From: Polynucleobacter sp. JS-JIR-II-50
GTDB taxonomy: Bacteria; Pseudomonadota; Gammaproteobacteria; Burkholderiales; Burkholderiaceae
DNA: 64,000 bases
Direction of reading: 5' to 3'
NCBI RefSeq assembly: GCF_018687895.1
Contig: NZ_CP061307.1
Location: 1,509,948 to 1,573,947, forward strand
The translations under genes and the position numbers were made by a program. Of this stretch, positions 20,336 through 42,017 are shown piece by piece; the first letter of the stretch is position 1, and the number at the start of each line of letters is the position of its first letter. Under the pieces are notes generated by a model. It ran no database searches and was not told the origin of the DNA. It saw nothing but the letters and a program-made list of their open reading frames with translations.

Positions 20336-20411
20336 GGGTCGGTAGCTCAGTCGGTAGAGCAGCGGACTTTTAATCCGTTGGTCGCGAGTTCGAATCTCGC
20401 CCGACCCACCA
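20336..20411 (+). tRNA. tRNA-Lys (anticodon TTT), CCA encoded
   Basis: Full cloverleaf of 76 nt. The acceptor stem GGGTCGG (20336-20342) pairs with CCGACCC (20401-20407), followed by discriminator A and an encoded CCA. The anticodon stem GCGGA/TCCGT encloses the loop CTTTTAA, giving anticodon TTT (lysine). The T arm contains GTTCGAATC. Its 3' 39 nt recur at 21381 and, with one mismatch and slightly shorter, at 34316, so this gene is the probable integration site of the accessory DNA downstream. Confidence 0.98.
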
Positions 20412-20413
20412 GT
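20375..20413 (+). repeat. tRNA-Lys 3' end, attachment-type repeat copy 1
   Basis: The 39 nt from the 3' side of the anticodon stem (CCGTTGGTCGCGAGTTCGAA...) through ACCAGT are repeated perfectly at 21381-21419. The first 36 nt recur at 34316-34351 with one mismatch. Position within a tRNA 3' half is the classic geometry of a tyrosine-integrase att core. Confidence 0.85.
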
Positions 20414-20418
20414 TATAC

Positions 20419-20456
20419 AAAAGCCTCTGGAGAAATCTAGGGGCTTTTTCTTTTAA
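20419..20456 (+). terminator. Hairpin terminator after tRNA-Lys
   Basis: AAAAGCC at about 20419-20425 pairs with GGCTTTT near 20442-20448, with a further CT/AG pair inside, followed by a T-rich run. Suits rho-independent termination of the tRNA transcript. Confidence 0.65.
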
Positions 20457-20524
20457 CAATCGGTTAATTGGCATTACCCCCTTTCAATTGAAACCTTAAT
20501 TAGCATCTTGTTTTAATATCATGC

Positions 20525-20547
20525 TATAATGCAATCATGCTGCATGA
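20525..20547 (+). promoter_or_regulatory. Promoter and palindromic operator of the TA-like operon
   Basis: A TATAAT -10 box is at 20525-20530. Just downstream is a perfect 13-bp palindrome, TCATGCTGCATGA (20535-20547), and ATCATGC also occurs at 20518-20524, overlapping the promoter from the other side. A ribosome site AGGAG follows at 20552. The arrangement fits autorepression by the antitoxin, as is usual for such operons. Confidence 0.55.
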
Positions 20548-20562
20548 ATATAGGAGAACGCC

Positions 20563-20853
20563 ATGGGCGCAGTGATAGATCATCAAGTTATTAAATCCAT
20601 TGGATCCAGTGGGCAGATCTCGCTTGGCAAAGAGCATGCGGGACGTCAGGTATTAGTGGAAACGCCTGAACCTGGCGTTTGGGTTATTCGTACCGCCACA
20701 GTTATTCCCGACAATGAGCGTTGGGTACATACGCCCGCCATTAAAAAGGACTTATCAGCAGCCTTGGTCTGGGCACAAAATACGCCAGCCAAAGCAACTG
20801 ACCTTTCTAAACTAAAAATGGCTAAAACTCATGGCGCAAAACGCAAAGCCTGA
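20563..20853 (+). CDS. Putative antitoxin, AbrB/SpoVT-like N-terminus
   Basis: A 96-residue protein preceded by a good ribosome site. The first half (VIKSIGSSGQISLGKEHAGR, then QVLVETPEPGVWVIRTA) resembles a swapped-hairpin AbrB-like DNA-binding fold of antitoxins. The second half is helical and basic (KLKMAKTHGAKRKA). It overlaps the next gene by 23 bases, as antitoxin-toxin pairs often do, and lies downstream of a palindromic operator. The family is inferred from pattern and context rather than a clear signature. Confidence 0.6.
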   Translation: MGAVIDHQVIKSIGSSGQISLGKEHAGRQVLVETPEPGVWVIRTATVIPDNERWVHTPAIKKDLSAALVWAQNTPAKATDLSKLKMAKTHGAKRKA

Positions 20854-21160
20854 GCCTTTAGTTGAGCTTGATCTGAATAGCCCCATCTTCCAATCTACCT
20901 GGGAGAGTTTGGAGCCATCCGAACAAGAGAAAGCCTTAGCCACTTTTGAGAAAATCACGCAATTGACCTGGAACCAGGTTTACCGCGATAAGGGATTGAA
21001 GTGGGAAAAGATTCATAGCATTCCCACACCAAAAGGCATTGATGCACTCTACTCATTTCGAGTTAGCAAATCAATCCGGGGAATTGGCTTCAGAGAAGAT
21101 CATTTCCTAAGGGTTTTATTAATTGAACCAGATCATGATGCTGCTTATGGAAAAAAATAA
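20831..21160 (+). CDS. Putative RelE/ParE-like toxin
   Basis: A 109-residue protein. The C-terminal part (FRVSKSIRGIGFREDHFLRV then LLIEPDHDAAYGKK) follows the RelE/ParE pattern of a basic beta-strand core ending with a His/Asp stretch. The N-terminal half is helical with acidic character. Paired with the upstream putative antitoxin and overlapping it; the next small gene overlaps its 3' end. An mRNA interferase or gyrase-poison activity is possible, but no catalytic residue can be assigned with certainty. Confidence 0.6.
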   Translation: MAQNAKPEPLVELDLNSPIFQSTWESLEPSEQEKALATFEKITQLTWNQVYRDKGLKWEKIHSIPTPKGIDALYSFRVSKSIRGIGFREDHFLRVLLIEPDHDAAYGKK

Positions 21161-21377
21161 TCCCATAAAAAAGCCTTTTGCGGTAACTCCAAGCAAAGAT
21201 ATACGTAATTCATCAGATCCTGATATTGCTGGATCCTACTACGCCATGCAACGTGCTGGACAAGCTGCAATAGACTTGGCAATTCAAACCAATACTGCAA
21301 TCGTAACTACCATTGATGGCAAGATAGTGCGGATCCCTGCCGCAGAACTCATTAAGCAGCGCCAACTTACGGCCTAA
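21123..21377 (+). CDS. Small third gene of the TA-like operon, unknown function
   Basis: Up to 84 residues; translation could begin at 21123 or at the ATG at 21147 (MEKNNPIKKPFAVTPSKDIR). It overlaps the toxin-like gene's end in another frame. The central region SSDPDIAGSYYAMQRAGQAA is predicted helical. The C-terminus TAIVTTIDGKIVRIPAAELI looks like a short beta-hairpin. No family recognised. Its stop codon lies three bases before the repeated tRNA fragment, so it marks the edge of the segment. It could be a chaperone-like or accessory TA component; that is speculation. Confidence 0.5.
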   Translation: MNQIMMLLMEKNNPIKKPFAVTPSKDIRNSSDPDIAGSYYAMQRAGQAAIDLAIQTNTAIVTTIDGKIVRIPAAELIKQRQLTA

Positions 21378-21380
21378 ACA

Positions 21381-21419
21381 CCGTTGGTCGCGAGTTCGAA
21401 TCTCGCCCGACCCACCAGT
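21381..21419 (+). repeat. tRNA-Lys 3' fragment, attachment-type repeat copy 2
   Basis: Perfect 39-nt copy of 20375-20413. It lacks the 5' half of the tRNA and cannot form a functional tRNA, so it is best read as an att duplicate left by integration. Confidence 0.85.
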
Positions 21420-21425
21420 ATCAAG

Positions 21426-21454
21426 AAACCCTCACTAGCAATAGTGGGGGTTTT
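21426..21454 (+). terminator. Hairpin terminator
   Basis: AAACCCTCACTA pairs with TAGTGGGGGTTT around a GCAA loop (one mismatch), then a T-rich tract. It directly follows the repeated tRNA fragment and would stop transcription leaving the TA-like operon. Confidence 0.65.
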
Positions 21455-21771
21455 GTCTTTCTAGGTTGGTGAAATGTGACAACTGTTAGGAGCAATGCGG
21501 AACTTAATAGACGTTTCGAGTGGGGATGGTGGGCGCTAGATGACAGATTGGACTATGGGCGTCTCGAAACGCGACACTTGTGTTGTCGGGTTAACCGACA
21601 TTTTATATCTGGGTGGCCATCCTCGAGTGGGTTTATTTTGATTCTTAGCGCCTCAGGATGAAATGAATTAACTACTATAAAAAAGTTTTAATCTTCGCAT
21701 TTTTGATCAAGTAATCAGCTAGGACTTCGCATAACAATAAGCAGCACTTAAAGCAATAATGATTGATCGAG
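21455..21771. other. Gene-free stretch at left end of the urease segment
   Basis: No convincing gene. It holds an inverted pair CGTTTCGAG (21512-21520) and CTCGAAACG (21563-21571), and a dyad TGTCGGGTTAACCGACA (21584-21600). A 61-codon open frame here lacks a good start and overlaps these repeats. The rest shows nothing recognisable. Confidence 0.6.
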
Positions 21772-22629
21772 CTATTCTTTACCAAGGTACTTATGAATCT
21801 GGAAAAGGATTCCATTTGATACACCTGATTGACTGTTTACCGGAAATACCACCTCAGCAGATAAGTTGAAATGCTCCCCTACCCAGACCACACCAGGATT
21901 TACTGATCCAGTAATTTGTCCAGCACAACGAGTAGTAAGGCATGTTTGCATAGGAAATTCAACTACAGCAACCAATCTATTAAAAAAATCATTCCAGCCA
22001 GTTGAGCGGACATAACGGTTCAAATATAAAAAACTATATTGAGCAGTAAAGCCCCAATTAAATACTTTTGCTTGAGTTTGCTCGGTAGGTATTTGATAGC
22101 CCAGTATTCCTGTTAATGCAAATGGTTTAAGTAACGCCATTGAATTGGGCAAATCCCCAAATCCCTTTGCATAGTAAATTGTCGGGGCATAGGTGCTGTA
22201 AGCATCCGAACCCTTTCCGCCGGTGCGTGATGCCTGCCCCGTCATACCGATAGTTACCGCAAACTCATGCTCGTCGTTAATTTCTAATTCTTTCTTTACC
22301 GTGTAATAGAGATTATCAAATCCGTTAGCCTGCGGCGTTAGATTGCCATTGGGTTGTCGATACACACCATCTATCGCAATACCAAAGCCATCAAAAGGTT
22401 CTATGCCGGCGCCTACTAGCGCCACATTTCCTGAGGTGGTATTCGAATTTCCAGCACCAATATTCGGGGTTCTACCGACTACGCCATGAGCCTCATTAGC
22501 AGCATATGGATCATCTACAACGATAGTAGGTGGAAAGTATCTATCGCCAGCAATTCCATGAGCACTAGCTGGCGATGCGATAAAAATAGTTAGAAGTAAG
22601 AGGGTCGTACATTGAAAAAATAAACTCAT
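21772..22629 (-). CDS. Secreted beta-rich (probably outer membrane) protein of the urease cluster, unknown function
   Basis: 285 residues with a clear signal peptide (LLLLTIFIASPASA, then HGIAGDRYFPPTIVVDDPYA). The mature part alternates hydrophobic and polar residues, rich in Gly, Tyr and Asn, and ends in a short strand-like tail (GILFQIHKYLGKE), as expected for an outer-membrane beta-barrel or porin-like protein. It is the last gene of the urease run, six bases after ureG. No family recognised with certainty. A role in nickel or urea passage across the outer membrane is an attractive inference from position only. Confidence 0.6.
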   Translation of the reverse strand: MSLFFQCTTLLLLTIFIASPASAHGIAGDRYFPPTIVVDDPYAANEAHGVVGRTPNIGAGNSNTTSGNVALVGAGIEPFDGFGIAIDGVYRQPNGNLTPQANGFDNLYYTVKKELEINDEHEFAVTIGMTGQASRTGGKGSDAYSTYAPTIYYAKGFGDLPNSMALLKPFALTGILGYQIPTEQTQAKVFNWGFTAQYSFLYLNRYVRSTGWNDFFNRLVAVVEFPMQTCLTTRCAGQITGSVNPGVVWVGEHFNLSAEVVFPVNSQSGVSNGILFQIHKYLGKE

Positions 22630-22634
22630 AAAAC

Positions 22635-23258
22635 CTAATTCTTTAGCAGTCCCTTCTTCTCAATAAACTCAATAATTCCTTTAAGCCCATCGCCTGACTT
22701 CACACTACCCATAATAAATGGTCGATCACCACGCATCTTTTTAGCGTCTGACTCCATGATGGGTAAGGAAGCTCCAACATAAGGAGCAAGATCGGTCTTA
22801 TTGATTACCAATAAATCAGAACGTGTAATTCCTGGGCCACCTTTACGAGGAATCTTTTCCCCTCCAGCTACATCAATCACATAAATCGTCAGGTCAGAAA
22901 GCTCTGGGCTGAAAGTTGCCGCCAAATTATCACCACCAGACTCAATAAAAATAATATCTACATCTGGATACTGCCGTTGCATACGATCAACAGCTTCTAA
23001 ATTGATAGAGGCGTCTTCTCTAATGGCGGTATGCGGGCAACCGCCTGTCTCAACCCCCATGATTCGCTCTGGATCTAATGCACCTGCAACAGTAAGTAAA
23101 CGCTGATCTTCTTTAGTGTATATGTCGTTGGTAATCACTACCAAGTCATACTGATCACGCATTGCTTTACAAAGCATCTCGAGCAAAGTTGTCTTGCCTG
23201 AACCTACAGGGCCACCAATACCAACTCTCAAAGGGGGATTTTTTTTAGTTCTCATCAT
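22635..23258 (-). CDS. ureG: Urease accessory GTPase UreG
   Basis: SIMIBI-class GTPase (207 residues) that powers nickel delivery to apo-urease. Features are the P-loop [17 protein letters not shown] near the N-terminus, the metal-binding CPH motif in [34 protein letters not shown], and the base-specificity motif [10 protein letters not shown]. The length is normal. Encoded between ureF and the secreted protein in the urease cluster. Confidence 0.97.
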
Positions 23259-23267
23259 TTCTTATTT

Positions 23268-23960
23268 CTATGAACGGAATAATCGGGAATACTGAGTCTC
23301 GTGTCTGGAAGAAAGGATAGCCAACATCGGTGCAAAATTGTCAACCATCGATAAACCAGATTTGGCTCTTTGTTCAGCCTGCTCAACCATTTCAGGAACA
23401 AGCAAGCGAAGCTTTGTTAGGGCATGCTGCCCTGCTACTTGACCCAGCGGTATAGCTTTTAAAGAAGCTGCTACTTGGTTTTCTATCCATGAGAATGCAT
23501 AAGCTGCAAGCCCATTCTTTGACTGTATATTTAGATGAAAACAGGCATAGCTATGGGCCGTCAATAATGACAAAGGTTTGATTGCAGATAATTTAGTAAG
23601 GTATTCGCTACCCCAACCCAAAGACTGAGCAATTTGCAATAAAGACCAACCCATCTGCTCAGCTTCTGATCTGAGCTCTGAGGTTTCGCGACTGGCTAAG
23701 AAATAGTCGTTCAGACTTTGGGCGGAATCAATATCTTTTTTTGCCCATGCCTCATAACTGAGAAGCCAAAGTGGGGCTTCAGATCTGACAAAGACACCTA
23801 AAAATACATCTTTTATCCATGCTTCTGCAGTTGGAGCATCGTTTACCAAGCCAGAATCAATGGCAGCTTCTAAGCCCTGAGAATAGCTATATCCACCGAT
23901 TGGCAATGCTGGTGATGCCAACTGCATCAATGCAGTGATTTCGTTTAGATCAATGCTCAT
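23268..23960 (-). CDS. ureF: Urease accessory protein UreF
   Basis: All-helical accessory protein that forms the UreD-UreF-UreG activation complex. The family core begins [20 protein letters not shown] and includes the conserved C-terminal region near [14 protein letters not shown]. The open frame extends upstream to 24035, but the ATG at 23960 gives the usual N-terminus ([12 protein letters not shown]) and an 11-base overlap with ureE, so it was chosen (230 residues). The upstream extension would be translated antisense-like to the His-rich tail codons of ureE and is not family-like. Confidence 0.94.
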
Positions 23961-24546
23961 GTGAATGATCATGATCGCCGTGATGATGGTGAGAGCATCC
24001 AGGCCCATGAACATGTGGCTTCTCATGTTCGGCATACACTTTTTGAGCTAAGGCATAGTCACTATCAAATGTCTCAGCATGACTATGGCGATGTCCACCT
24101 CCATACGCACCTGTTTCAGGCTCAAACGGGGCAAATTCATGCTTAGACTCCAACCCCAGTTGATGAATCATGCCCTCTAACACTGAGTCAGGCTCAATCC
24201 TCAAGAATCCTAAGCCTACCTGAACAGGAATATGTCGATTACCTAAGTGGTAAGCCGCCCTCATTAGCTGATGTGCATCGGTAGAGGCAATTGTTATTAC
24301 CTCTTGATCCGCCGCGGAGATTCGAATCATGGATCCATCATCTGCAATCAAAATATCATCACTTGCCAGCACATTACCTCTTGGCAGAAAAAAGTGTGCC
24401 TCGCGACCATCGGAAAGTATTTCTGAAAAACGGCTTTTATTGCGTACCTCAAATGGCAACTTTAGTTCGAGCGCTCTAGCAATAACTGCTTTGGCTAAGC
24501 CCTGTCCTTTGGGGATGATTTTCTCAACGCGAATTGGTTCTGACAT
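23950..24546 (-). CDS. ureE: Urease accessory nickel metallochaperone UreE
   Basis: Delivers nickel to the UreDFG complex. 198 residues, with an N-terminal peptide-binding domain ([20 protein letters not shown]) and a C-terminal metal-binding domain ([20 protein letters not shown]). It ends in a histidine-rich tail ([18 protein letters not shown]) typical of UreE proteins that buffer several nickel ions. Eight bases separate it from ureC upstream; its end overlaps ureF. Confidence 0.97.
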
Positions 24547-24554
24547 AATTTTTC

Positions 24555-26258
24555 CTAGAACAAGAAATATCGTTGAGCCATTGGTAATACCTTTGCTGGC
24601 TCACAAGTTAATAGTTCGCCATTTGCTATCACTTGGTAGGTCTCTGGATCTACGGAGATATTTGGCTGCCAATCGTTGTGGACCATATCTGCCTTGGTGA
24701 TAGATCGACAATTCTTTACCGCCTCAACTTGCTTCTCTAATCCATAAGCATCGCGAATATTGGCATTCATAGCCGATTGAGAAATGAAAGTTAACGAGCT
24801 ATGACGTATCCCCTGGCCAATGCCCGCAAACATATTTCGGTAATGAACGGGCTGCGGCGTTGGAATAGATGCGTTTGGATCGCCCATAGCCGCTGCCGCA
24901 ATAGACCCACCCTTTAATATTAATGAAGGCTTGACGCCGAAGAAGGCAGGCTTCCAAAATACTAAATCCGCATACTTACCCACCTCAATAGACCCAACAA
25001 CATGAGAAATGCCATGGGTAATGGCAGGATTAATGGTGTACTTAGAGATGTAACGCTTGACTCGGAAGTTATCGTGACGATTTGTATCACCCGGAAGCAA
25101 ACCACGCTGTACTTTCATCTTGTCAGCAGTTTGCCAGGTACGAATAATCACCTCACCCACACGCCCCATCGCTTGAGAATCTGATGAAAGCATCGAGAAG
25201 GCGCCTAAGTCATGCAAGATATCCTCCGCAGCGATGGTTTCACGACGAATGCGCGATTCTGCAAAGGCAATATCTTCAGCGATAGATGCATCAAGATGAT
25301 GGCACACCATCAGCATATCCAAATGCTCATCTAATGTATTAACCGTAAATGGTCTGGTGGGGTTAGTTGAGGATGGCAATACATTTGACTCGCCACACGC
25401 ACGAATAATGTCGGGGGCATGACCGCCGCCCGCGCCCTCGGTGTGATAAGTGTGAATAGTGCGCCCCTTAAATGCAGCTAAGGTAGTTTCTACAAATCCT
25501 GACTCATTTAAAGTATCGGTATGAATTGCCACCTGAGTATCAGTTTCATCAGCAACGCCCAAACAACAATCAATCGCTGCTGGCGTAGTCCCCCAGTCTT
25601 CATGCAACTTCAATCCAATTGCGCCTGCATCAACTTGCTCTCGTAATCCAGCTGGCAAGCTAGCATTGCCTTTACCCAATAGGCCAATATTCATAGGATA
25701 TGCATCGATGGATTGCAACATTCTTTGAATATGCCAAGGACCAGGCGTGCAAGTAGTTGCAAAAGTACCAGTTGCTGGGCCCGTACCGCCACCAATCATG
25801 GTGGTTACCCCAGACATTAAAGCCTCTTCAATTTGCTGCGGACAAATAAAGTGGATATGAGTATCAATACCACCCGCCGTCACTATCATTCCTTCGCCAG
25901 CAATAATTTCGGTACCAGGGCCAATGACAGAAGTGATCCCCGGTTGAATATCTGGGTTACCAGCCTTACCAATATTAGATATTCTGCCATTTTTAATAGA
26001 GATATCAGCTTTGATAATGCCCCAGTGATCAATGATTACCGCATTGGTAATAACGGTATCGGCACAGTCCTTTGACTCGCGTTGACTTTGGCCCATACCA
26101 TCACGAATGACTTTACCACCGCCAAATTTGACTTCTTCGCCATAGATAGTGAGGTCCTTTTCAACCTCAATCATGAGGCCGGTATCCGCCAGTCTTAAAC
26201 GATCACCTACAGTAGGGCCAAACATTTCAGCATAGGCTTGACGACCAATCTTAGCCAT
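24555..26258 (-). CDS. ureC: Urease alpha subunit UreC
   Basis: Catalytic subunit hydrolysing urea to ammonia and carbamate. 567 residues, the standard bacterial length. Visible: the HIHF metal-ligand pair ([17 protein letters not shown]), the lysine carbamylated to bridge the two nickels in [22 protein letters not shown], the [16 protein letters not shown] metal histidines, and the flap histidine region MVCHHLD. All ligands appear intact, so the enzyme should be active. It abuts ureB with a one-base overlap. Confidence 0.98.
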
Positions 26259-26596
26259 TAGAGACCCCCCATAACGCGGCCAGCAAAGCCATAAATCTTC
26301 TTCTCACCAGCCACCTCTACAAGCTCAATAGTGCGCTTTTGGCCTGGCTCAAAACGCACAGCAGTGCCTGCAACAATATTTAATCGCATGCCCTTCGTTT
26401 TATCGCGATCAAATACTAGGGCATCATTTACTTCAAAGAAGTGAAAATGGGAACCGATTTGAATAGGACGATCGCCACTATTAGAGACTTCAATTGAAAG
26501 TGTTTTTCGGCCAACATTCAACTCAATATCTCCAGGCTCTACAAACATCTGCCCTGGAATAAAGCGTTGGCTATTTGCACTTGATGGCGAACTCAT
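26258..26596 (-). CDS. ureB: Urease beta subunit UreB
   Basis: 112-residue structural subunit of the separate-chain (alpha/beta/gamma) type of urease. Conserved stretches are [33 protein letters not shown], and [20 protein letters not shown] with [17 protein letters not shown] short N-terminal Ser/Asn leader is present. It overlaps ureC at its stop and ureJ at its start, indicating coupled translation. Confidence 0.97.
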
Positions 26597-27225
26597 GTCG
26601 ATGCTCCGCCAAGCAGTGCAAAGGAAAGCTGACTGATTAATACCCAGCCGTATATAACACTAGCAAATCCAGTCACTCTTGCAAAGATCGCCGTCTTGTC
26701 CCTAAGGAGCTTGACCAATAGAGCGCCTGATAAATGCAAGATCCCTGTCGCCAAAATCAAGCCAGCCATATCTTGTGCTACCAAGGGGGCTCCAAGGGAT
26801 CCATTTGAAAATAATGCAGCGTGGGCAAACCCATGAAATATTCCAAAAAAACTAATTAAGGCAAGGATTGCATTATTGGAGTACTGGCGCTGTACAAGCA
26901 ACAATAATCCCATTGCAATTACAGAAGCAGCGATTCCAAATTCAAAGATATGAAGAGGTAAATTACTTAGGCCAGCAAATACCCCAAGACACATACCTAA
27001 TATAAAAACACAAGGCCCAAGCCAGATTTTTTTCAGCATGAAAGCACTCCAAAATCCTACGAGCACAATGACTAAAAAATGATCAAAGCCACTAAATGGA
27101 TGCATCAGACCCGATAGGAAACTAACCGAAGTTTCATGTCCTGGGTGGGCATAAACCAAATTTGAAGATAGAACTCCGATCAATCCAGCAAAAGCTAACA
27201 ATATTTTTTTTATATAAAGACTCAT
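26593..27225 (-). CDS. ureJ: HupE/UreJ family membrane protein
   Basis: 210 residues with a signal-like N-terminal helix, then the family hallmark [20 protein letters not shown] with [18 protein letters not shown] (HPxSGxDH nickel motif), and six or so hydrophobic helices. A second conserved histidine motif, [16 protein letters not shown], is in the middle. HupE/UreJ proteins are thought to import nickel as secondary permeases. Located between ureA and ureB, which is common in proteobacteria and fits nickel supply to the enzyme. Confidence 0.9.
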
Positions 27226-27236
27226 TTGTATTGCTC

Positions 27237-27539
27237 CTAAACAATCGGGTTATGAACTGTGACTAATTTTGTTCCATCAGGAAATGTTGCCTCAATCTGA
27301 ATATCTGGAATCATTTCTGGAACCCCTTCCATGACATCTTCGCGACCTAGTATCGCTTGCCCTTCGTGCATCAGTTGTGCGACAGTTTTGCCATCGCGAG
27401 CACCCTCCATAATCGAAGCGCTAATTAAAGCGACTGATTCCGGATAGTTCAACTTGAGGCCCCGAGCCTTTCTGCGCTCCGCTAAGAGTGCCGCTGTGAA
27501 TATGAGTAATTTATCTTTTTCGCGTGGAGTTAATTCCAT
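27237..27539 (-). CDS. ureA: Urease gamma subunit UreA
   Basis: 100-residue smallest structural subunit: [20 protein letters not shown] at the start, then [36 protein letters not shown] and [20 protein letters not shown] at the end. Complete and of standard length. Situated between ureD and ureJ; a gap of 18 bases follows ureD. Confidence 0.98.
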
Positions 27540-27557
27540 ATCTCACCTATAACAATC

Positions 27558-28433
27558 CTAAGAAGCCCAAAGCCGTAATGGCTGAGCTGGCACACCATGA
27601 ACGATTGGTCTTAATTTGGACCATACATCAATCATAAAATTTCTGGCTATCTCCATATCATTAGAGACTACCCTCACCAAAAAGACGCCTTGTGGCATCA
27701 ACGTCACCCCAGCCCGTAATGAATCAGTCCAAGGCATCATCTCAGCAAAGGTTTCAACTAAATTAGCTGAGCACCTTGGTCCTACGGCCCATAGAGTTGC
27801 ACAAACAGGCCAAGACCCTAGTTGAGTTAAAGATCTGGAGTATTGATCTTCGGCATCTATATGCCCGTTCTCGATCCAAATTAACTTTCCATCACGCCTT
27901 ATTTCATTGAGCATATGAATGTGGCCACTAGACCATTCCTCGCCAGAGGCATGGCGTCCTAACATCAGGGCGTCCCAACCAATAAATGAAGCATTCGATG
28001 AAAGGCTCATCCTGGTAATAACGTTAGAGTTTGCGCCTTTAAAAAAAAGATTCTCTTGAGGTAGCCAATCTAATTTTGCATTCTCACCCAGCTCAAATTG
28101 AATATTTTGAGTAGCAGGATTTTTAAATGATTTGTACCATTTAGTGGCACTTGGAGTAGATAGAACCACATGACTACCCTTGCCAACAGCAACCTGGATA
28201 TCTAAGGTATCTCCGCCTGCGATACCTGCTGGCGGGTGAATGATGACCGTGTGGCAAATATCATCACCTTCGGGATATAAAGCTTTTTGAACTCGCAGTG
28301 GCCCCTCATGCAAACTTTTCTTTAATACAGTGCCAATTACAGTGCGCTCATAAGATAGGCTCAGTTTGGCTAGCCAACTAGGACTTAGAGGCCTAAATAG
28401 CTTTTTTACTGCGTTGTCTGGAGCCAAAAACAT
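27558..28433 (-). CDS. ureD: Urease accessory protein UreD (UreH)
   Basis: 291-residue accessory scaffold that binds apo-urease and passes nickel from UreG. Signature regions include LSYERTVIGTVLKKSLHEGP, ICHTVIIHPPAGIAGGDTLD, VVLSTPSATKWYKS and the LDWLPQENLFFKGAN stretch, all typical of UreD. It heads the ure part of the cluster, 35 bases downstream of urtE, so urea uptake and urease genes may share a transcript. Confidence 0.96.
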   Translation of the reverse strand: MFLAPDNAVKKLFRPLSPSWLAKLSLSYERTVIGTVLKKSLHEGPLRVQKALYPEGDDICHTVIIHPPAGIAGGDTLDIQVAVGKGSHVVLSTPSATKWYKSFKNPATQNIQFELGENAKLDWLPQENLFFKGANSNVITRMSLSSNASFIGWDALMLGRHASGEEWSSGHIHMLNEIRRDGKLIWIENGHIDAEDQYSRSLTQLGSWPVCATLWAVGPRCSANLVETFAEMMPWTDSLRAGVTLMPQGVFLVRVVSNDMEIARNFMIDVWSKLRPIVHGVPAQPLRLWAS

Positions 28434-28468
28434 ATGGGTAAGCCATCTAAGTGGAATGAGTATCCACT

Positions 28469-29161
28469 TTAAACCGAAATCATCTCCTGAACACCATTGA
28501 GATCCATATCAGCACCTTTGCCTTGCGCGACGACTTCACCGCGGCGCATCACAATATAGTTATCTGAGAGCTCTTTTGCAAAGTCGTAATATTGTTCAAC
28601 GAGAAGAACGGTAATACCCATTTCATCGACTAACTTGCGAAGGCATCGACCAATGTCCTGAATAATCGATGGCTGAATACCCTCGGTAGGCTCATCCAAA
28701 ATGATCAACTCTGGCTGAGACATCAATGCACGCCCAATTGCTAACTGCTGTTGTTGGCCACCTGACAAATCACCGCCCCGACGCGCCTTCATATCCGACA
28801 GAATTGGAAATAGCTCGTAAATATATCCAGGGATATTTTTTGGGCTTGAGAATTTTGCCGCTCCAATGAGCAAGTTTTCTTCGACTGTGAGTCTTGGGAA
28901 AATTTCTCGACCTTGAGGAACATAGGCAAATCCACCGTCCACCCGAGACCACGGGGGTAGATTGGCCAATTCTTTTCCATCCCAAGCAATCGAGCCAGTC
29001 TTTACTTTCACCACACCCATAAGCGATTTGAGCAAAGTGGTTTTGCCAACGCCATTTCGCCCAAGCAAACTGGTTAATTGACCCTTGGGGACTTCAAAAT
29101 TCACATTACGCAAAATATGGCTTCCGCCATAATATTGATTGAGATCTTTGACGATAAGCAT
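28469..29161 (-). CDS. urtE: Urea ABC transporter ATP-binding protein UrtE
   Basis: LivF-type ATPase of 230 residues. Walker A is LLGRNGVGKTTLLKSL, the signature LSGGQQQQLAIGRAL, Walker B LIILDEPTEGIQPS, and the H-loop equivalent VLLVEQYYDFA. The sequence type (LPPWSRVDGGFAYVPQGREIF and TEGIQPSIIQDIG) is that of UrtE rather than general LivF, and it sits between urtD and ureD, so urea is the likely substrate of the complex. Confidence 0.95.
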   Translation of the reverse strand: MLIVKDLNQYYGGSHILRNVNFEVPKGQLTSLLGRNGVGKTTLLKSLMGVVKVKTGSIAWDGKELANLPPWSRVDGGFAYVPQGREIFPRLTVEENLLIGAAKFSSPKNIPGYIYELFPILSDMKARRGGDLSGGQQQQLAIGRALMSQPELIILDEPTEGIQPSIIQDIGRCLRKLVDEMGITVLLVEQYYDFAKELSDNYIVMRRGEVVAQGKGADMDLNGVQEMISV

Positions 29162-29163
29162 GA

Positions 29164-29961
29164 TTAACGCCCTAAATACGATTCGATTACGCGTTCATCA
29201 CGCTTCACTTCATCCAAAGTGCCTTCGGCTAGAACTGAACCTTCAGCCAATACAGTCACCTTACCTTTTGGGCCCGCTAAAGCAGCAACAAATTCCATAT
29301 CATGCTCAACTACCATCATCGAGCATTGACCACGTAATGAATTTAGAAGCTCAGCTAAGCGCATTGTTTCTTCGTCCGTCATCCCTGCAACGGGCTCATC
29401 AAGCAATAACAGCTTGGGCTGCTGCATTAGAAGCATACCAATCTCTAAGCGTTGCTTTTGACCGTGAGAAAGAAGGCCAGCTTCACGATAAGCTTCTGAC
29501 TCTAACTGTGTAAGGGCAAGCACTGATTCCATCAAACGACGGCCCTCTAGATCTACTTTAGCAATCAAGGAGTGATGCCATGATTTATCTCCAGCCATCG
29601 CCAATTCAAGATTTTCCCAAACAGGGTGATGCTCAAATACCGTGGGCTTTTGAAATTTACGGCCAACGCCAATTTGGGCAATTTGTGGCTCGTTCATGGT
29701 CATCAGATCAATGGTCGAACCTAAATAAACGGAGCCATCAATATCAGCAATGTTAGAGCGAGTTTTACCGGTAATGACATCCATTAAGGTAGTCTTACCG
29801 GCGCCATTAGGCCCAATCACACAGCGCAGTTCGCCGACATCAATCGTCAATGACAATTTATTAATGGCCTGAAAACCGTCAAAATTGACCGATAGATCAT
29901 CCACATAGAGGATTCCAGTATGAGAAGTATCGATTCCCTTCTCAAGAAAGTGAGCGCTCAT
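29164..29961 (-). CDS. urtD: Urea ABC transporter ATP-binding protein UrtD
   Basis: LivG-type ATPase, 265 residues: Walker A VIGPNGAGKTTLMDVITGKT, signature LLSHGQKQRLEIGMLL, Walker B LLLLDEPVAGMTDEET. The VAGMTDEET sequence after Walker B is characteristic of UrtD. Two bases separate it from urtE and its start overlaps the urtC stop by four bases. Confidence 0.96.
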   Translation of the reverse strand: MSAHFLEKGIDTSHTGILYVDDLSVNFDGFQAINKLSLTIDVGELRCVIGPNGAGKTTLMDVITGKTRSNIADIDGSVYLGSTIDLMTMNEPQIAQIGVGRKFQKPTVFEHHPVWENLELAMAGDKSWHHSLIAKVDLEGRRLMESVLALTQLESEAYREAGLLSHGQKQRLEIGMLLMQQPKLLLLDEPVAGMTDEETMRLAELLNSLRGQCSMMVVEHDMEFVAALAGPKGKVTVLAEGSVLAEGTLDEVKRDERVIESYLGR

Positions 29962-31109
29962 TTTGACCCACCCTTCTTAACAACGAATTTGTGATAGATA
30001 CCCAGCAATCCATTCGGTAGAAACAAGGTCACCAATACAAACATCATTCCTAAGAAAAACAGCCAATATTCTGCAAAGTTAGTGGTAAAAAAACTCTTAG
30101 CCCCGCTCACCGCAAATGCGCCAATAATTGGACCTAGCAAGGTGCCGCGGCCACCTACTGCTACCCAGATCGCCATCTCAATCGAGTTTGTTGGAGACAT
30201 CTCTCCAGGATTAATGATGCCCACCTGCGGAACGAATAAAGCTCCAGCAATGGCGCATAGGATGGCAGATAGAACCCAAATAAAGAGTTTGTAACCTAAG
30301 GGGTTGTACCCACAAAACATCAAACGAGATTCTGCATCCCGTACCGCTGTAATCACCCTTCCCATTTTTGAGGTCACCAGGGCTCGGCAAAGAATAAAAC
30401 TGCCCAACAGGACTAAGAAGGTAACAATGAAAAGTGTGACGCGAGTACTTGGCGCGCTGATGGAGTAACCCAATATCCGCTTAAAGTCCGTGAAACCATT
30501 ATTGCCCCCAAAACCTGTTTCATTTCTAAAGAAAAGAAGCATGGCAGCATACGTTAATGCCTGCGTAATGATCGAGAAGTACACCCCTTTAATTCTGGAG
30601 CGAAAGGCAAAGTAACCAAATACCCAGGAAATCACTCCCGGAACCAGAATGAGCATCAAGAGCATCCACCAAAAGTGTTCGCTCCCCTTCCAGAACCAAG
30701 GCAACTCTTTCCAGTCTAAGAAAACCATGAAGTCAGGTAATTCGCTTTTGTATACACCTTCAGTTCCTATCTGGCGCATGAGATACATGCCCATGATGTA
30801 ACCGCCAATAGCAAAGAACAATCCATGCCCCAAACTCAATATTCCGCAGTAACCCCAAACCAAATCAAGCGCTAAGGCCGCAATTGCAAAGCACATAATC
30901 TTGCCAATTAAACTAAGCGCATAAGCAGACATGTAGAACATACTAGTCTCGGGAACCAGCAAAGAAAATATTGGCACACCAATTAATACGCACAGTGTCA
31001 ATGCTGCTAAGGCAATATAAGCACGCTTGCTGAGTATGGATTCACGCTCAGGAATTGCCAAACTAAAGCTAGATGAAGGAGCAAGCTTTCTAATATCCAT
31101 ATTAATCAA
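29958..31109 (-). CDS. urtC: Urea ABC transporter permease UrtC
   Basis: LivM-type permease, 383 residues, with a hydrophilic N-terminal leader of about 30 residues and eight to ten membrane helices. Family landmarks: LDLVWGYCGILSLGHGLFFA, GVYFSIITQALTYAAML, GFTDFKRILGY, and AVRDAESRLMFCGYNPLGYK with AIWVAVGGRGTLLGPIIGA. Overlaps urtB and urtD by a few bases. Confidence 0.95.
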   Translation of the reverse strand: MINMDIRKLAPSSSFSLAIPERESILSKRAYIALAALTLCVLIGVPIFSLLVPETSMFYMSAYALSLIGKIMCFAIAALALDLVWGYCGILSLGHGLFFAIGGYIMGMYLMRQIGTEGVYKSELPDFMVFLDWKELPWFWKGSEHFWWMLLMLILVPGVISWVFGYFAFRSRIKGVYFSIITQALTYAAMLLFFRNETGFGGNNGFTDFKRILGYSISAPSTRVTLFIVTFLVLLGSFILCRALVTSKMGRVITAVRDAESRLMFCGYNPLGYKLFIWVLSAILCAIAGALFVPQVGIINPGEMSPTNSIEMAIWVAVGGRGTLLGPIIGAFAVSGAKSFFTTNFAEYWLFFLGMMFVLVTLFLPNGLLGIYHKFVVKKGGSK

Positions 31110-32685
31110 CGCTCCTGCCTTTCAGTGCGAAGAGGCCTTGAGGACGTCTTTGGATAAAAATAATAATGAACACTAAGATAGCAATCTTGGCCAATACGGC
31201 GCCAATAAATGGCTCTAATAATTTGCTGGTGATACCAAGTCCAAATGCACCATAAATAGTGCCTGCAAGCTGACCTACTCCACCGAGTACCACCACCATG
31301 AAGGAATCAACAATATAGCTTTGACCAAGATCGGGACCTACGTTACCAATCTGTGAGAGGGCTACACCACCAAGACCGGCAATGCCTGCGCCAAATGCAA
31401 AGGCATACATATCCACGCGCACTGTTTTGACACCCACGCATGCAGCCATAGTCCGGTTTTGAGTAACCGCCCTGACGAAAAGCCCTAGACGAGTTTTGTT
31501 TAATACTAGCCAAGTCACGATTACTACCGCAATCGCAAAAGCAAAAATAATGATCCGGTTATAGGGCACAACCAAGTTAGGTAGTACCTGCATGGCACCA
31601 GACATCCACGTTGGATTAGCCACCTCGACATTTTGAGCGCCAAAAATAGTTCTGGTCATCTGAATCATCAGCAAACTGACGCCAAAGGTGGCTAATAAGG
31701 TTTCTAGCGGACGACCATATAAAAATTTAATGACCGTTCTTTCGATCAAAATACCCACTAAGGCGGCGGCAATAAAAGCAACCGGCAAAGCGAATAACAA
31801 ATACCAATCTAAATAGCCAGGAGCATATTGCCTGAAAAATCCTTGTACAACATAAGTTGCATAAGCACCAACCATCAGGAATTCACCGTGCGCCATATTG
31901 ATGACGCCAATCAAGCCATAAGTAATCGCCAAGCCCAAAGCGCAAAGTAACAAAATACTTCCATAACTAAACCCAGCGATCACATTACCCAGGATTTCGC
32001 CGCTAAACTCAGACTTCTTAATTTTGGCTAAAGCCTTTTCAGCCGCCTCTTGCACTGGGCCACCCTCTTTTGCCAAAGGCGCCAGCAATGCAGCAACTTG
32101 TGGATCACCACTATCGCCTAAGAGTTCAATTGCCTTTAGTTTTGATTCTTGATTGTCGGATTGCAAAGCAAGGAGCGCCCAGAGCTTCTGTACTTTTGGC
32201 TTGAGCGCAGGATCCTTTTCGGTAGCCAGTAAGTTTTCAACCAATGGGAAGGTGTCTGGCTCGGGATCCTTGATTAAAGAGTCGACTGCCTTAGCGCGAA
32301 TCTGTGGATCTGCAGAAGCTAGCTGTAAACCTAGCAAGGCATTATCAACTTTACCGCGCAGTTGATTATTCAGAATAACGTCTTGCAGTTCATCCGGCTT
32401 CACTGAAACACTTAGTCCGGTTAAGGGATCTAAATATTGATCGCCCTTTTGAACTACAACACCTTGGGGCGACAAGAAAAGGCTTTCTGCACTGAGAGCC
32501 TGAAGAATTTCTAAGGCTTCGGGACTACCCTCTTTAGATAAATTTTGGACCACTTTAACTTTGGCATCAAAGTTATCACTAAACAGGGGCTTTAAATCTG
32601 CAACATTAATTTTTGCAAAAGTAATCCCACATGCCAATACACAAGCAGCAGAAAGGATTAGTTTTGAAAAGATTGGAAATTTCAT
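31102..32685 (-). CDS. urtB: Urea ABC transporter permease UrtB
   Basis: LivH-type permease. The ATG at 32685 (MKFPIFSKLILSAACVLACG) gives a signal peptide and 527 residues. The frame is open further up to 32724, but that stretch crosses the urtA terminator. About 200 residues of soluble, HEAT-like sequence (VDSLIKDPEPDTFPLVENLL and similar) precede the membrane part, an extension known in proteobacterial UrtB. The permease core shows ALGLAITYGLIGVINMAHGE, LATFGVSLLMIQMTRTIFGA, and IAGLGGVALSQIGNVGPDLG. It is the first gene after the urtA-urtB hairpin. Confidence 0.94.
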   Translation of the reverse strand: MKFPIFSKLILSAACVLACGITFAKINVADLKPLFSDNFDAKVKVVQNLSKEGSPEALEILQALSAESLFLSPQGVVVQKGDQYLDPLTGLSVSVKPDELQDVILNNQLRGKVDNALLGLQLASADPQIRAKAVDSLIKDPEPDTFPLVENLLATEKDPALKPKVQKLWALLALQSDNQESKLKAIELLGDSGDPQVAALLAPLAKEGGPVQEAAEKALAKIKKSEFSGEILGNVIAGFSYGSILLLCALGLAITYGLIGVINMAHGEFLMVGAYATYVVQGFFRQYAPGYLDWYLLFALPVAFIAAALVGILIERTVIKFLYGRPLETLLATFGVSLLMIQMTRTIFGAQNVEVANPTWMSGAMQVLPNLVVPYNRIIIFAFAIAVVIVTWLVLNKTRLGLFVRAVTQNRTMAACVGVKTVRVDMYAFAFGAGIAGLGGVALSQIGNVGPDLGQSYIVDSFMVVVLGGVGQLAGTIYGAFGLGITSKLLEPFIGAVLAKIAILVFIIIFIQRRPQGLFALKGRSVD

Positions 32686-32689
32686 GGTG

Positions 32690-32721
32690 ATTGTGAAAAC
32701 CCTCCCCCAAGCGAGGGAGGG
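32690..32721 (-). terminator. Terminator/attenuator between urtA and urtB
   Basis: On the minus strand CCCTCCC (32721-32715) pairs perfectly with GGGAGGG (32706-32700) around an 8-base loop, then GTTTTC. It probably stops most transcripts after urtA, giving more binding protein than permease, a usual pattern for ABC importers. Confidence 0.7.
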
Positions 32722-32737
32722 CATTTTCTATTGAAAA

Positions 32738-33997
32738 TTACTGTACTGAATCAGGCTTGCCTGCATTACCGTCGATATACTGGCTCCATGGTTTAGCTGG
32801 AATAGCTGTTGGAGTTTTGTAGATCACGTTGAATTGTCCGTCTGCCTTGATTTCACCAATCATGACCGGCTTAGACAAATGGTGATTAGCACCCATCACC
32901 TCAAGATAACCACTTGGAGTGTTAAGTTTTTGACCAATCATTGCCTTACGAACAGCATCAACATCGGTTGTGCCCGCTTTCTCAACAGCCGCTTTCCACA
33001 TCAAGATACCGGTACGACTAGCCTCCATTGGGTCATCTGTCAAAGGCTTGCTAGCCCCTGGCAACTTTTTCTCTACAGAGTAAGCGGCCCACTGTTTTTT
33101 CCACTCGTCATTAACTGGGTTCTTAACTGACATGAAGTAATTCCATGCAGCCAATTGACCTACCAACGGCTTGGTATCAACGCCACGCAATTCCTCTTCA
33201 CCAACAGAGAATGCCACTACTGGAACATCTTTCGCTTTCAAGCCTGCATTACCCAATTCTTTATAGAAAGGAACGTTTGAGTCGCCGTTAATAGTAGAAA
33301 CAACTGCTGTCTTGCCGCCTTGAGAGAACTTCTTGATATTGGCAACAATAGTTTGATAGTCTGAGTGACCAAATGGTGTGTATGTTTCTTGAATATCATC
33401 ATCTTTAACACCTTTAGATTTCAAGAATGCGCGCAAGATCTTATTGGTTGTACGTGGGTATACGTAGTCAGTTCCCAAAAGAACCCAGCGCTTAGCACCG
33501 CCGCCCTCTTTACTCATCAAATACTCTACTGCTGGAATTGCTTGTTGATTAGGCGCTGCACCGGTGTAGAACACATTACGAGACATTTCTTCGCCTTCGT
33601 ACTGCACGGGGTAGAAGAGTAAGCCATTGAGCTCTTCAAAAACTGGCAGTACAGATTTACGTGATACGGAAGTCCAGCAGCCAAAAACAACCGAAACCTT
33701 ATCTTTAGTTAAAAGCTGTCGAGCCTTTTCAGCAAATAATGGCCAATTGGAAGCTGGATCAACCACTACTGGCTCTAATTTACGACCCAATACTCCGCCG
33801 CTTTTATTAATCTGGTCAATCACCATCAAATCCATATCTTTAAGTGATGTTTCGGAGATTGCCATTGTTCCGGATAGTGAATGCAAAATACCAACCTTAA
33901 TTGGCTCCTTGCTTTGAGCCATCGCCAAATGACTTAAACCTGTAAAACTCAAAGCCGCAGCCAAAGCTGACAACTTCAAAATTGATCTACGCTTCAT
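32738..33997 (-). CDS. urtA: Urea ABC transporter substrate-binding protein UrtA
   Basis: Periplasmic binding protein of 419 residues; the N-terminus MKRRSILKLSALAAALSFTG is an export signal ending near AMAQ, possibly Tat-type (KRRS). The mature sequence starts KEPIKVGILHSLSGTMAISE with the UrtA-typical SLKDMDLMVIDQINKSGGVLG, and includes the ligand-site region WTSVSRKSVLPVFEELNGLL. First gene of the urea operon, with its own terminator, so it should be the most highly expressed component. Confidence 0.96.
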   Translation of the reverse strand: MKRRSILKLSALAAALSFTGLSHLAMAQSKEPIKVGILHSLSGTMAISETSLKDMDLMVIDQINKSGGVLGRKLEPVVVDPASNWPLFAEKARQLLTKDKVSVVFGCWTSVSRKSVLPVFEELNGLLFYPVQYEGEEMSRNVFYTGAAPNQQAIPAVEYLMSKEGGGAKRWVLLGTDYVYPRTTNKILRAFLKSKGVKDDDIQETYTPFGHSDYQTIVANIKKFSQGGKTAVVSTINGDSNVPFYKELGNAGLKAKDVPVVAFSVGEEELRGVDTKPLVGQLAAWNYFMSVKNPVNDEWKKQWAAYSVEKKLPGASKPLTDDPMEASRTGILMWKAAVEKAGTTDVDAVRKAMIGQKLNTPSGYLEVMGANHHLSKPVMIGEIKADGQFNVIYKTPTAIPAKPWSQYIDGNAGKPDSVQ

Positions 33998-34315
33998 GTC
34001 TCACCTCTTGAGTAAATTAATCAGTTGGGCACATACAACCACTGCCTGCATTGATTAGAGGATGTTTCATGTTGGTGCAAATTCAAATAATCACCAAAAC
34101 AGAGCGTCTGCACCAAAACAAAGCGTCATCAAATTAAGAATTGCACTAAGAATAGGAATTTATACCGTTACAAAGGGGATGCCCTATTTTCCACTTTGTT
34201 ACTTGTCCTGGAACCATGGGAACTTGAACTAGGACAACTTTTTGTCGTTTAACCCGACAAACCTACTGTCTAGAAAAGTCACACCCCTATGTATCCCAAT
34301 TAAATCTATTTAGGC
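33998..34315 (-). promoter_or_regulatory. Upstream region of the urea/urease operon
   Basis: No gene. It contains a dyad TTGGTGCA (34072-34079) / TGCACCAA (34109-34116), resembling two halves of NtrC-type sites, and two near-identical 17-mers (CACCAAAACAGAGCGTC at 34092 and CACCAAAACAAAGCGTC at 34111) with a 19-bp period. Nearer the island end is a dyad TTTGTCG-N7-CGACAAA (34241-34261). A clear sigma-54 or sigma-70 promoter was not resolved by eye. Confidence 0.45.
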
Positions 34316-34351
34316 CCGTTGGTCGCGAGTTCGAATCTCGCCTGACCCACC
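34316..34351 (+). repeat. tRNA-Lys 3' fragment, attachment-type repeat copy 3
   Basis: 36 nt matching the tRNA-Lys 3' region with one change (T for C at 34343), ending CCACC and then diverging (G in place of the terminal A). No 5' half is present. It is the right boundary of the urease segment and looks older or more decayed than copy 2. Confidence 0.8.
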
Positions 34352-34529
34352 GCATATACATAAGTCCTTGTATTTTTGGATCAAGAGCTTTTTTATTCAC
34401 CCCTCTCACCACCAATAAATTAATGGACTCTTTAGGATAACCCTAGGGATAACCCAAAATACGAAGTTGATGGACGTCTTTTCAGGTTAAGCTTAAGCCC
34501 ATAAAACATATTACGAAGTTGAGACAGCA
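34352..34529. other. Junction region after the third att-like repeat
   Basis: 178 bases without a gene between the repeat and the binding-protein gene. It includes the short repeat ACGAAGTTGA (34461 and 34511 areas), which may be coincidental. No clear promoter was identified. Confidence 0.35.
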
Positions 34530-35288
34530 TTGAGATACTTACTTAAGTTTTGCCTTTCCATTTATTTCATTTGGAGCTCACCAGCTATAGCTCAACTTGG
34601 GGTCATGATATCGGGTGGTTTTTCGGGACCCTACAATCAAATGCTACCCGGCTTTGAACAGAAAACTGGCATTAAAGTAATCACCAAATCAGGCGCTTCC
34701 CAGGGCTCCGGACCTAAAACCATCAAATCCCAACTGAATGCGGGCACAACGGCAGATATAGTCATTTTGTCGCGCGAGGGATTAGCCGAACTCATGGCTC
34801 AGAATAAGATTCTGCCAAACTCGGATGTCGATTTAGCCAAAGCCCCCTTAGGCCTTGCGATCCCATCAGGAAATCCAAGACCAGACATCTCTACCATTCA
34901 GTCTTTTTCAAATGCCCTAGTAAAAGCAAAAAAAATTGTTATGCCAGGCAGCACAAGCGGTATCTATTTAAATGCTGAACTATTTCCACGTCTAGGGATC
35001 AGCAATCAAATTGAGGTTCAAGTCACCGAAAGGGGTGCTGAATCTACTGCCATTCTGGCTGCGCATAAGGCAAATATTGCCATTCAGCCCAGCAGTGAAT
35101 TGGTCAACGTTCCCGGTATTGACTATGTCGGCGCCCTTCCTGGCGATATTCAACTCATTCAGACTTTTAGCGCAGCCATTATTCTGAATTCGCCAAATCA
35201 AGAGGCGGCCAAAAAACTGGTTGAATATTTAAGCTCACCAAGCGCGGCCATACCCATTAAAAATAGCGGCATGGATTTAGTACGTTAA
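34530..35288 (+). CDS. ModA-like periplasmic substrate-binding protein (orphan)
   Basis: 252 residues: signal peptide FCLSIYFIWSSPAIA, then a type-2 periplasmic binding fold of the molybdate/sulfate group (VMISGGFSGPYNQMLPGFEQ, then ASQGSGPKTIKSQLNAG with TADIVILSREGLAELM, and later KIVMPGSTSGIYLNAELF). No permease or ATPase lies next to it; instead a Tat-exported amidohydrolase follows 21 bases downstream. Such orphan ModA-like proteins often bind organic anions or serve other roles, so molybdate is not assured. It is the first gene outside the island. Confidence 0.7.
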   Translation: MRYLLKFCLSIYFIWSSPAIAQLGVMISGGFSGPYNQMLPGFEQKTGIKVITKSGASQGSGPKTIKSQLNAGTTADIVILSREGLAELMAQNKILPNSDVDLAKAPLGLAIPSGNPRPDISTIQSFSNALVKAKKIVMPGSTSGIYLNAELFPRLGISNQIEVQVTERGAESTAILAAHKANIAIQPSSELVNVPGIDYVGALPGDIQLIQTFSAAIILNSPNQEAAKKLVEYLSSPSAAIPIKNSGMDLVR

Positions 35289-35309
35289 CCCACACTTGAA
35301 AGTGTCTTT

Positions 35310-36395: not shown

Positions 36396-36430
36396 ACCAA
36401 TTAAGCTAAAACCTCGCCTAGTTAGTTATA

Positions 36431-36464
36431 AAAAAGCCTCCGAGCATCCGCTCAAGGGCTTTTT
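36431..36464. terminator. Bidirectional hairpin terminator
   Basis: AAAAAGCC (36431-36438) pairs with GGCTTTTT (36457-36464), with an inner GAGC/GCTC pair. It lies between the convergent amidohydrolase and alpha/beta hydrolase genes and has A/T tracts on both sides. Confidence 0.75.
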
Positions 36465-36492
36465 CTTTGCCTATTATTTTTCTAAGCTTTGC

Positions 36493-37299: not shown

Positions 37300-37304
37300 A
37301 TCAG

Positions 37305-38754: not shown

Positions 38755-38757
38755 CTT

Positions 38758-40550: not shown

Positions 40551-40560
40551 ATTCAGCGAA

Positions 40561-41808: not shown

Positions 41809-41862
41809 AACTGTCTCCTCGCGGTGTTTTGTACTCTGTAATTGTAGTTTTAACGTCTTAGT

Positions 41863-41876
41863 TGATATACTACAAT
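41863..41876. promoter_or_regulatory. Candidate GntR operator repeat 1
   Basis: TGATATACTACAAT; a second copy with two changes occurs 107 bases away at 41970. It lies upstream of the livK-like gene in a very AT-rich divergent promoter region. Confidence 0.4.
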
Positions 41877-41983: not shown

Positions 41984-42017
41984 TTATATTTATAGAGAGC
42001 CTAATATCTCTGAAACC

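Follow-up and report, generated by a model that had tools for sequence, protein, structure and literature searches.

How does a complete nitrogen-source trait come to lie between pieces of a tRNA gene when it carries no integrase of its own? The question is raised by a 64-kb stretch of the genome of Polynucleobacter sp. JS-JIR-II-50 (hereafter the window, W, whose coordinates are used throughout), in which genes for urea uptake and urease are flanked by copies of the 3' end of tRNA-Lys. The source genome (G000) is complete and consists of one 2.07-Mb contig; other genomes and loci are numbered G### and L###. The comparisons reported here indicate that the 12.9-kb urea segment is quite probably a passive cassette, resembling a cis-mobilizable element (CIME), in an accretion array stacked by site-specific recombination with the recombinase supplied in trans.

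The tRNA-Lys(TTT) gene was the single tRNA called by ARAGORN in the window, and its 3' end recurs at two places downstream (Table 1). Copies 1 and 2 form an exact 39-nt repeat, and copy 3 differs from the tRNA at 1 of 36 positions. When up to 11 mismatches to the 39-nt query were allowed, the 64 kb yielded these three places, all on the plus strand, and no minus-strand match. Shuffled loci, used as a control, gave 0 matches at up to 9 mismatches of 37, and exactly three copies were present in the whole of G000 at up to 2 mismatches. The three repeats had been named in a preliminary description of this DNA and are confirmed; it had placed all 39 nt in the tRNA 3' end, which holds for the repeat as such, but its last 2 nt extend past the ARAGORN-called gene. 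A decayed tRNA-Lys-like 3' stretch, which gave no tRNA call, lies 0.8 Mb from the locus (L005, G000:C1:740747-740798, minus strand).

Between copies 2 and 3 were found urtABCDE, ureABC, ureDEFG, a HupE/UreJ family gene and a gene for a 285-aa predicted beta-barrel, in agreement with the urt and ure content described before. The HupE/UreJ product (26593..27225) is presumably a nickel permease. The 285-aa protein gave no Pfam match, and its predicted fold resembles outer-membrane channels of the FapF/COG4313 kind (predicted local distance difference test score, pLDDT, 90.2). The earlier claim that the island has no integrase was borne out: four tyrosine recombinases were identified in G000 with PF00589, all outside the window, and a broader tyrosine-recombinase hidden Markov model (HMM), built from the loci examined, matched no open reading frame (ORF) of the window. 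The urea element lacks the integrase of its own that defines an autonomous integrative element (integrative and conjugative element, ICE; integrative and mobilizable element, IME; or prophage). It has the direct-repeat attachment sites of a CIME, and recombination genes are absent by PF00589, the HMM and Pfam analysis of its products. A P4-like 442-aa integrase of G000 (at 946665) has no tRNA in the surrounding 12 kb.

Sharp-edged transfer of the cassette was seen in G182, where tRNA-Lys is followed directly by the urea cassette and then by a perfect fragment. The two DNAs are 97.2% identical over 11.7 kb (W22651-34364), far above the flank, which reaches 76.9% in the amiC region and 68.4% over W18039-18779. 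The left arm is 78.5% identical over the 223 nt that could be aligned; the DNA before the right fragment is the same in both genomes, with homology continuing through copy 3 to 34364. The part that includes the barrel gene (W21601-22650) is absent from G182 and has a homologue in L160 and L161. For the 13 ure/urt genes, the ratio of nonsynonymous to synonymous substitution rates (dN/dS) against G182 was 0.056. The lateral transfer proposed earlier is supported by this genome, and an allele without the island, also proposed, was found in G067, which has no UreC match and whose amiC product is 98% identical to that of the window. DNA homology between the window and G067 ends exactly with copy 2, at 21419, and restarts at 46230. 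Identity is 89.6% in the tsaE-amiC flank (1683/1878) and 86.0% over 20250-20335, then 100% in the tRNA and 99.5% (964/969) in cassette 1, the segment between copies 1 and 2; therefore an integrase-less cassette moved recently, its edges being the tRNA and the fragment. By these sequence comparisons the urea element, too, is a discrete mobile unit that has been laterally transferred, and a site-specific island at tRNA-Lys, as first described, is supported.

The locus was placed in the context of the genus by searching 186 genus genomes. tRNA-Lys loci were taken from 80 relatives, 58 of them single-contig, each reaching from about 2 kb before the tRNA to about 18 kb after it (contig ends shorten L054, L110 and L116), giving 81 loci with the window; extra fragments were counted at up to 4 mismatches of 37. 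Homologues of tsaE and amiC precede tRNA-Lys in 80/80 relatives. The array is observed directly: 61 extra tRNA-Lys 3' fragments occur in 39 of the 81 loci, all 61 downstream and on the tRNA strand, with 0 on the minus strand. Over the 186 genomes the 3' segment was present at least once in 167 and at least twice in 96, with 200 extra copies, some second copies in contaminated bins being second tRNA genes (G142, G147); a reversed-pattern control gave 0 among the matches listed. Of the 61 cassettes so bounded, 12 contain a tyrosine-recombinase ORF and 49 do not by HMM, other recombinase classes not having been searched; for the tRNA-proximal cassettes the counts were 11 and 28 of 39. Twenty of the 61 are no longer than 1.5 kb, and 12 of these 20 were judged toxin-antitoxin-like from their ORFs, counting that of the window and its two relatives. 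Among representatives of the small cassettes, AbiEii, Fic, zeta and HigB exceeded the Pfam cut-off and a Gp49-like match fell just below it, and other small cassettes carry IF-1 (Pfam) or unassigned genes; lipoprotein and efflux genes are, we assume, also among them. In L055, a translation initiation factor IF-1 gene is enclosed in a 1087-bp tRNA-Lys cassette.

Mismatches of the fragments rise outward. In 25 multi-fragment loci, scored with hits of up to 9 mismatches to each locus's own tRNA, the last fragment matched less well than the first in 16, equally well in 8 and better in 1, and this polarity was equalled by 0 of 10000 within-locus permutations. The polarity fits entry at the tRNA end with outward displacement. 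Variable cargo, one tRNA and repeated 3' fragments, the features of an additive flexible genomic island (fGI), were all found. The single island first described therefore stands as an island, but as one unit of a recurring multi-cassette array, with a similar array at tRNA-Arg. In a family-level pattern search 41 of 299 genomes were matched, 40 of them from this genus, a result that reflects the tRNA sequence and is silent on arrays elsewhere.

We suggest the following sequence of events. Elements would enter at the tRNA-Lys 3' end through tyrosine-recombinase site-specific recombination, rebuilding the tRNA; newcomers would displace older elements outward together with their tRNA fragments, and the displaced fragments would decay. 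Autonomous elements that use the same tRNA would supply the recombinase in trans, the best helper candidates being those that encode DUF6641 together with two tyrosine recombinases, one large (Int462 or Int404 type) and one small. The action in trans, the identity of the recombinase and the route of the DNA between cells are what we infer from these arrangements.

The same cargo was found behind other tRNA genes. UreC matches were present in 29 of the 186 genomes (that of G054 weak and partial), and 20 ure loci were read from 19 genomes. In G047, G089 and G098, the urea cassette, with 95-100% protein identity, lies between tRNA-Arg(TCT) 3' fragments of the opposite strand, and an apparent stump of the tRNA-Lys fragment is present at the left edge of the cassette; the sequence examined includes the tRNA-Arg gene itself in G047 and G098 but not in G089. 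The cassette is thus present in arrays of two tRNAs. The tRNA-Arg 3' segment, at up to 2 mismatches of 34, occurs at least once in 148 of the 186 genomes and at least twice in 82, with one copy in G000. A CAT-anticodon tRNA 3' fragment (0 to 6 mismatches of 45), whose identity was read from the sequence, not by ARAGORN, stands at one side of the cassette in L154, L157, L159 and L160. In L156, L158 and L161, the cassette is flanked on both sides by direct repeats that measure roughly 180-290 bp and are 80-87% alike; ARAGORN found no tRNA in them, and they are perhaps a further attachment type. In all, boundaries were found at 11 of the 20 ure loci, G182 included, and no boundary at the remaining 9.

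Recombinase-bearing units bounded by perfect tRNA-Lys fragments were found in L038, L066, L073, L078, L093 and L046. In the first five a large recombinase comes right behind the tRNA, and a small recombinase and a DUF6641 protein are encoded as well; a related Int404 set is present in L059 (split), L077, L108, G047 and G098. The unit of L046, 9 kb from tRNA-Lys to the first fragment, resembles a phage satellite in encoding an Arm-DNA-bind_3 integrase and a DUF3987/Toprim primase-helicase. In G047, a single segment between fragments comprises the urea cassette together with genes for a 411-aa integrase and a 188-aa recombinase; the DUF6641 gene is in the next segment. A palindrome, TGTCG-N7-CGACA, was found at 34 sites in the 81 loci, 19 of them no more than 300 bp from the end of a tRNA or fragment (the null averaged 2.4 and peaked at 10; 0 of 5000 redraws reached 19), and 5 of the 61 cassettes, among them the urea cassette of the window, have it at both ends. 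The exact motif also lies 66-73 bp upstream of 5 of the 7 Int404-type genes whose 5' end can be read (those of L077, L108 and L059, and one of the two in each of G047 and G098), and the remaining 2 have a near form. The left arm of the window aligns with DNA upstream of int in L077 (score 52; shuffle maximum 25). From these positions we infer a common putative binding site at cassette ends and before Int404-type genes. DUF6641 was detected in 97 of the 186 genomes and not in G000. The urea island may at present be stranded in G000, because no DUF6641 gene and no Int404 homologue were found there. A literature search on DUF6641 returned no paper.

Several observations weigh against a trans-acting helper and entry at the tRNA end. 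Neither excision nor action in trans has been seen. The motif is missing from the ends of 12/12 recombinase-bearing cassettes, also at up to 1 mismatch. Its link to Int404 comes from tRNA-Arg arrays and from L059, L077 and L108, in which no right tRNA-Lys fragment was found, and the Int404 gene of L059 is split over two frames. Past the palindrome the left-arm alignment is clear for L077 only, that with L059 being mostly palindrome, and L108, G047 and G098 gave nothing that reached a score of 40. The Int404 search of G000 matched nothing, but was run without a positive control. DUF6641 and tRNA-Lys arrays co-occur over the 186 genomes (p 0.0007), but not detectably in the 61 single-contig genomes (p 0.30), and tRNA-Arg arrays gave p 0.24 and 0.39, respectively. 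DUF6641 was rejected as a marker of array activity, being significant for tRNA-Lys (and for either) arrays in the full set alone. The polarity hits with 8-9 mismatches may include false fragments. Lastly, entry at the tRNA alone does not account for the different content behind the cassette 1 that the window and G067 have in common; separate entry of cassette 1 into each, or use of the fragments as further targets, would account for it.

A wider proposal, which we advance tentatively and hold to be doubtful, is an integron-like tRNA system, in which a module of two tyrosine recombinases and DUF6641 would mobilise in trans the integrase-less cassettes marked by fragment and motif, toxin-antitoxin cassettes would stabilise the array, and metabolic cargo, the urea cassette included, would pass between tRNA-Lys, tRNA-Arg and CAT-anticodon arrays. 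The preliminary description had left three options, decay, mobilisation in trans and homologous recombination, of which mobilisation in trans fits best. That the urea island is a decayed integrative element, now fixed after loss of its integrase, with the copies in other species as old arrivals, is unlikely. It agrees with the absence of a recombinase from the island and of any Int404 match or DUF6641 gene from G000, and loss of recombinase genes is plausible because G047 has the cassette beside a small recombinase and the 411-aa integrase in one segment. The 49 of 61 cassettes without a detected tyrosine recombinase, the 20 of at most 1.5 kb, and the 99.5% identity of integrase-less cassette 1 between species speak against it, and decay alone is insufficient because cassettes 97-99.5% identical have sharp ends. 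Decay and passive movement are compatible, and this explanation overlaps with the passive cassette preferred here.

That the cassettes spread by transformation or transduction followed by homologous recombination, with the fragments as leftovers of old integrations that only mark the edges, is quite unlikely. Uptake of free DNA is possible in G000 because ComEC is present; homologous recombination is described as frequent in P. asymbioticus (excerpts of PMC5644125), and the content behind cassette 1 differs between the window and G067. Flanking DNA should travel along in such exchange, yet the flank of G182 is 68-77% identical to the window, and identity to G067 rises abruptly from 86.0% before the tRNA to 100% within it and 99.5% across cassette 1, homology ending with copy 2. 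An ordinary, vertically inherited cluster that lies next to a tRNA, its repeats being due to chance or structure, is hardly credible: UreC homologues are widespread in related Burkholderiales (80 loci retained of at least 590), but within the genus they occur in a minority of genomes (29/186), identity far exceeds that of the flank, and the sites vary by genome.

Cassette 1, for which a toxin-antitoxin-like module had been proposed, can be so described by predicted fold only. The AlphaFold2 model of o2 (mean pLDDT 80.8) gave RelE/YoeB/YafQ toxins as top matches in the PDB (probability up to 1.00, best E 0.013, none at E <= 0.001), and a PDB sequence search returned nothing at E <= 1. o2 has 277 homologues, and the named ones among the best 120 of the 277 are all 'hypothetical'. 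When o1, o2, o3 and the barrel protein were compared with PHROGs, weak matches were obtained for o2 alone, to unknown families. DNA related to o3 was found at 7 of the 61 cassette right ends, window included. The o3-like proteins of the window, L076, L116, L060 and L064, 65-89 aa long when counted from the first start codon, stop 3 bp before the fragment, and related right-end DNA is also present in L042 and L111. Since the cassettes with o3-like proteins carry different toxins (RelE-like or zeta), o3 seems tied to the cassette right end, not to one toxin.

Table 1. Features of the tRNA-Lys locus in window coordinates.
Feature	Position	Strand	Remarks
Intact tRNA-Lys, anticodon TTT, attachment gene	20336..20411	+	ARAGORN
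Repeat copy 1, tRNA gene 3' end + 2 nt	20375..20413	+	
Cassette 1, 969 bp, toxin-antitoxin-like by predicted fold	20412..21380	+	
o1, 96 aa, possible antitoxin	20563..20853	+	weak DUF2080 match below cut-off
o2, 109 aa, predicted RelE/YoeB-like toxin fold	20831..21160	+	
o3, 76 aa	21147..21377	+	stop codon ends 3 bp before copy 2
Repeat copy 2, cassette 1 right end and urea element left end	21381..21419	+	
Urea element left arm	21420..21600	+	aligns with G182 left arm and with DNA right of tRNA-Lys in L059, L108, L111, L113
Left palindrome TGTCGGGTTAACCGACA (TGTCG-N7-CGACA end motif)	21584..21600	strand-neutral	
285-aa predicted outer-membrane beta-barrel, channel-like	21772..22629	-	homologue beside ureG in L160 and L161
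ureG	22635..23258	-	
ureF	23268..24035	-	listed ORF overlaps ureE; real start probably further downstream
ureE	23950..24546	-	
ureC	24555..26258	-	
ureB	26258..26596	-	
HupE/UreJ family gene	26593..27225	-	
ureA	27237..27539	-	
ureD	27558..28433	-	
urtE, ABC ATPase	28469..29161	-	urt name from gene order
urtD, ABC ATPase	29164..29961	-	
urtC, permease	29958..31109	-	
urtB, permease	31102..32724	-	
urtA, binding protein	32738..33997	-	
Right-end palindrome TGTCGTTTAACCCGACA	34243..34259	strand-neutral	56 bp before copy 3; identical stretch precedes fragment in G182
Repeat copy 3, urea element right end	34316..34351	+	1 mismatch
Further variable cargo past copy 3	34352..46229	strand-neutral	sequence in common with G067 restarts at 46230
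ModA-like + amidohydrolase pair	34530-36395		homologues in G184
Second ABC transporter block (branched-chain/urea-like) + aldehyde dehydrogenase	36487-45714		homologous in G041 and G090

Variable cargo continues past copy 3 with the ModA/amidohydrolase pair and a further 9 kb. The preliminary description had predicted that urease-negative relatives would have tRNA-Lys directly before the ModA-like gene; this arrangement was found in 0 of the 80 relative loci, and the gene lies within about 18 kb of tRNA-Lys in G184 only, at +15.8 kb. G041 and G090 have the 36487-45714 block too, at 86% DNA identity and likewise downstream of tRNA-Lys. No recognisable tRNA-Lys fragment was found inside 34352..46229; decayed fragments considered in 36380-36500 and 45700-46260 were rejected, with local scores of 26 and 24 and background maxima of 26 and 27. 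In G061 (C1:554401-566569), two tRNA-Lys 3' fragments in opposite orientation lie far from the tRNA, possibly through an inversion or as a second array. Three viral contigs of IMG/VR carry the 36-nt segment, none with a match to the window proteins: L180 with a complete tRNA as well as a weak match to XerC/XerD (best E 1.5e-4), L178 with the tRNA interrupted by the contig end, and L179 with no full tRNA-Lys upstream.

The array offers a concrete route for a common freshwater bacterium to gain or lose a whole nitrogen-source trait. The question of how hitchhiking, integrase-less islands move is now testable, since a helper and end sites can be proposed and one and the same tRNA is followed by the cassette in some genomes and not in others. 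In the same genus, genomic islands of P. asymbioticus are exchanged even between species according to PMC5644125, a paper in which the words tRNA, integrase and urease do not occur. No title or abstract start among the listed Polynucleobacter papers on genomic islands, tRNA, integrases or urease (including PMC5644125, PMC5018217, PMC3308952 and PMC7522526) describes the array, although Hoetzinger et al. 2017 AEM may already do so.

The known systems are compared here as represented in excerpts of the cited papers. The tRNA-Lys (CTT) 3'-end repeats of fGI-2 of Ca. Methylopumilus (PMC10872708) likewise recur with variable cargo in a freshwater bacterium, but are 20 nt long, and no cassettes, recombinases or movement between tRNAs are resolved in those excerpts. 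Tycheposons (via PMC10872708) are also tRNA-bordered cargo islands with nitrogen-related cargo, but have a tyrosine recombinase, which the urea cassette lacks. CIMEs (PMC7563491; classical ones 1.2-13 kb) retain attachment sites, have neither recombination nor transfer genes, and lie in tandem with intact elements, a description that the passive cassettes resemble. CIMEs are decayed ICEs or IMEs moved by conjugation, and the likeness here lies in the attachment repeats and the missing recombinase; CIMEs are also farthest from the target gene, whereas here 28 of 39 tRNA-proximal cassettes are without a detected recombinase. The nearest precedent is the ssrA-specific islands of Dehalococcoides (PMC3146451), which are arranged in tandem downstream of one RNA gene and bounded by short 3'-end repeats. 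Their integration module, a large and a small recombinase, is present in some and absent from others, as here, and those without it were suggested by the authors to be cis-mobilizable. Dehalococcoides uses a tmRNA gene and serine recombinases, whereas tRNA-Lys and tRNA-Arg, tyrosine recombinases and many 1-kb toxin-antitoxin-like cassettes were found here, and one cargo occurs in arrays of different tRNAs. The arrangement is of a known kind, and is unusual in its scale, its high share of passive and toxin-antitoxin-like cassettes, and its cargo behind more than one tRNA.

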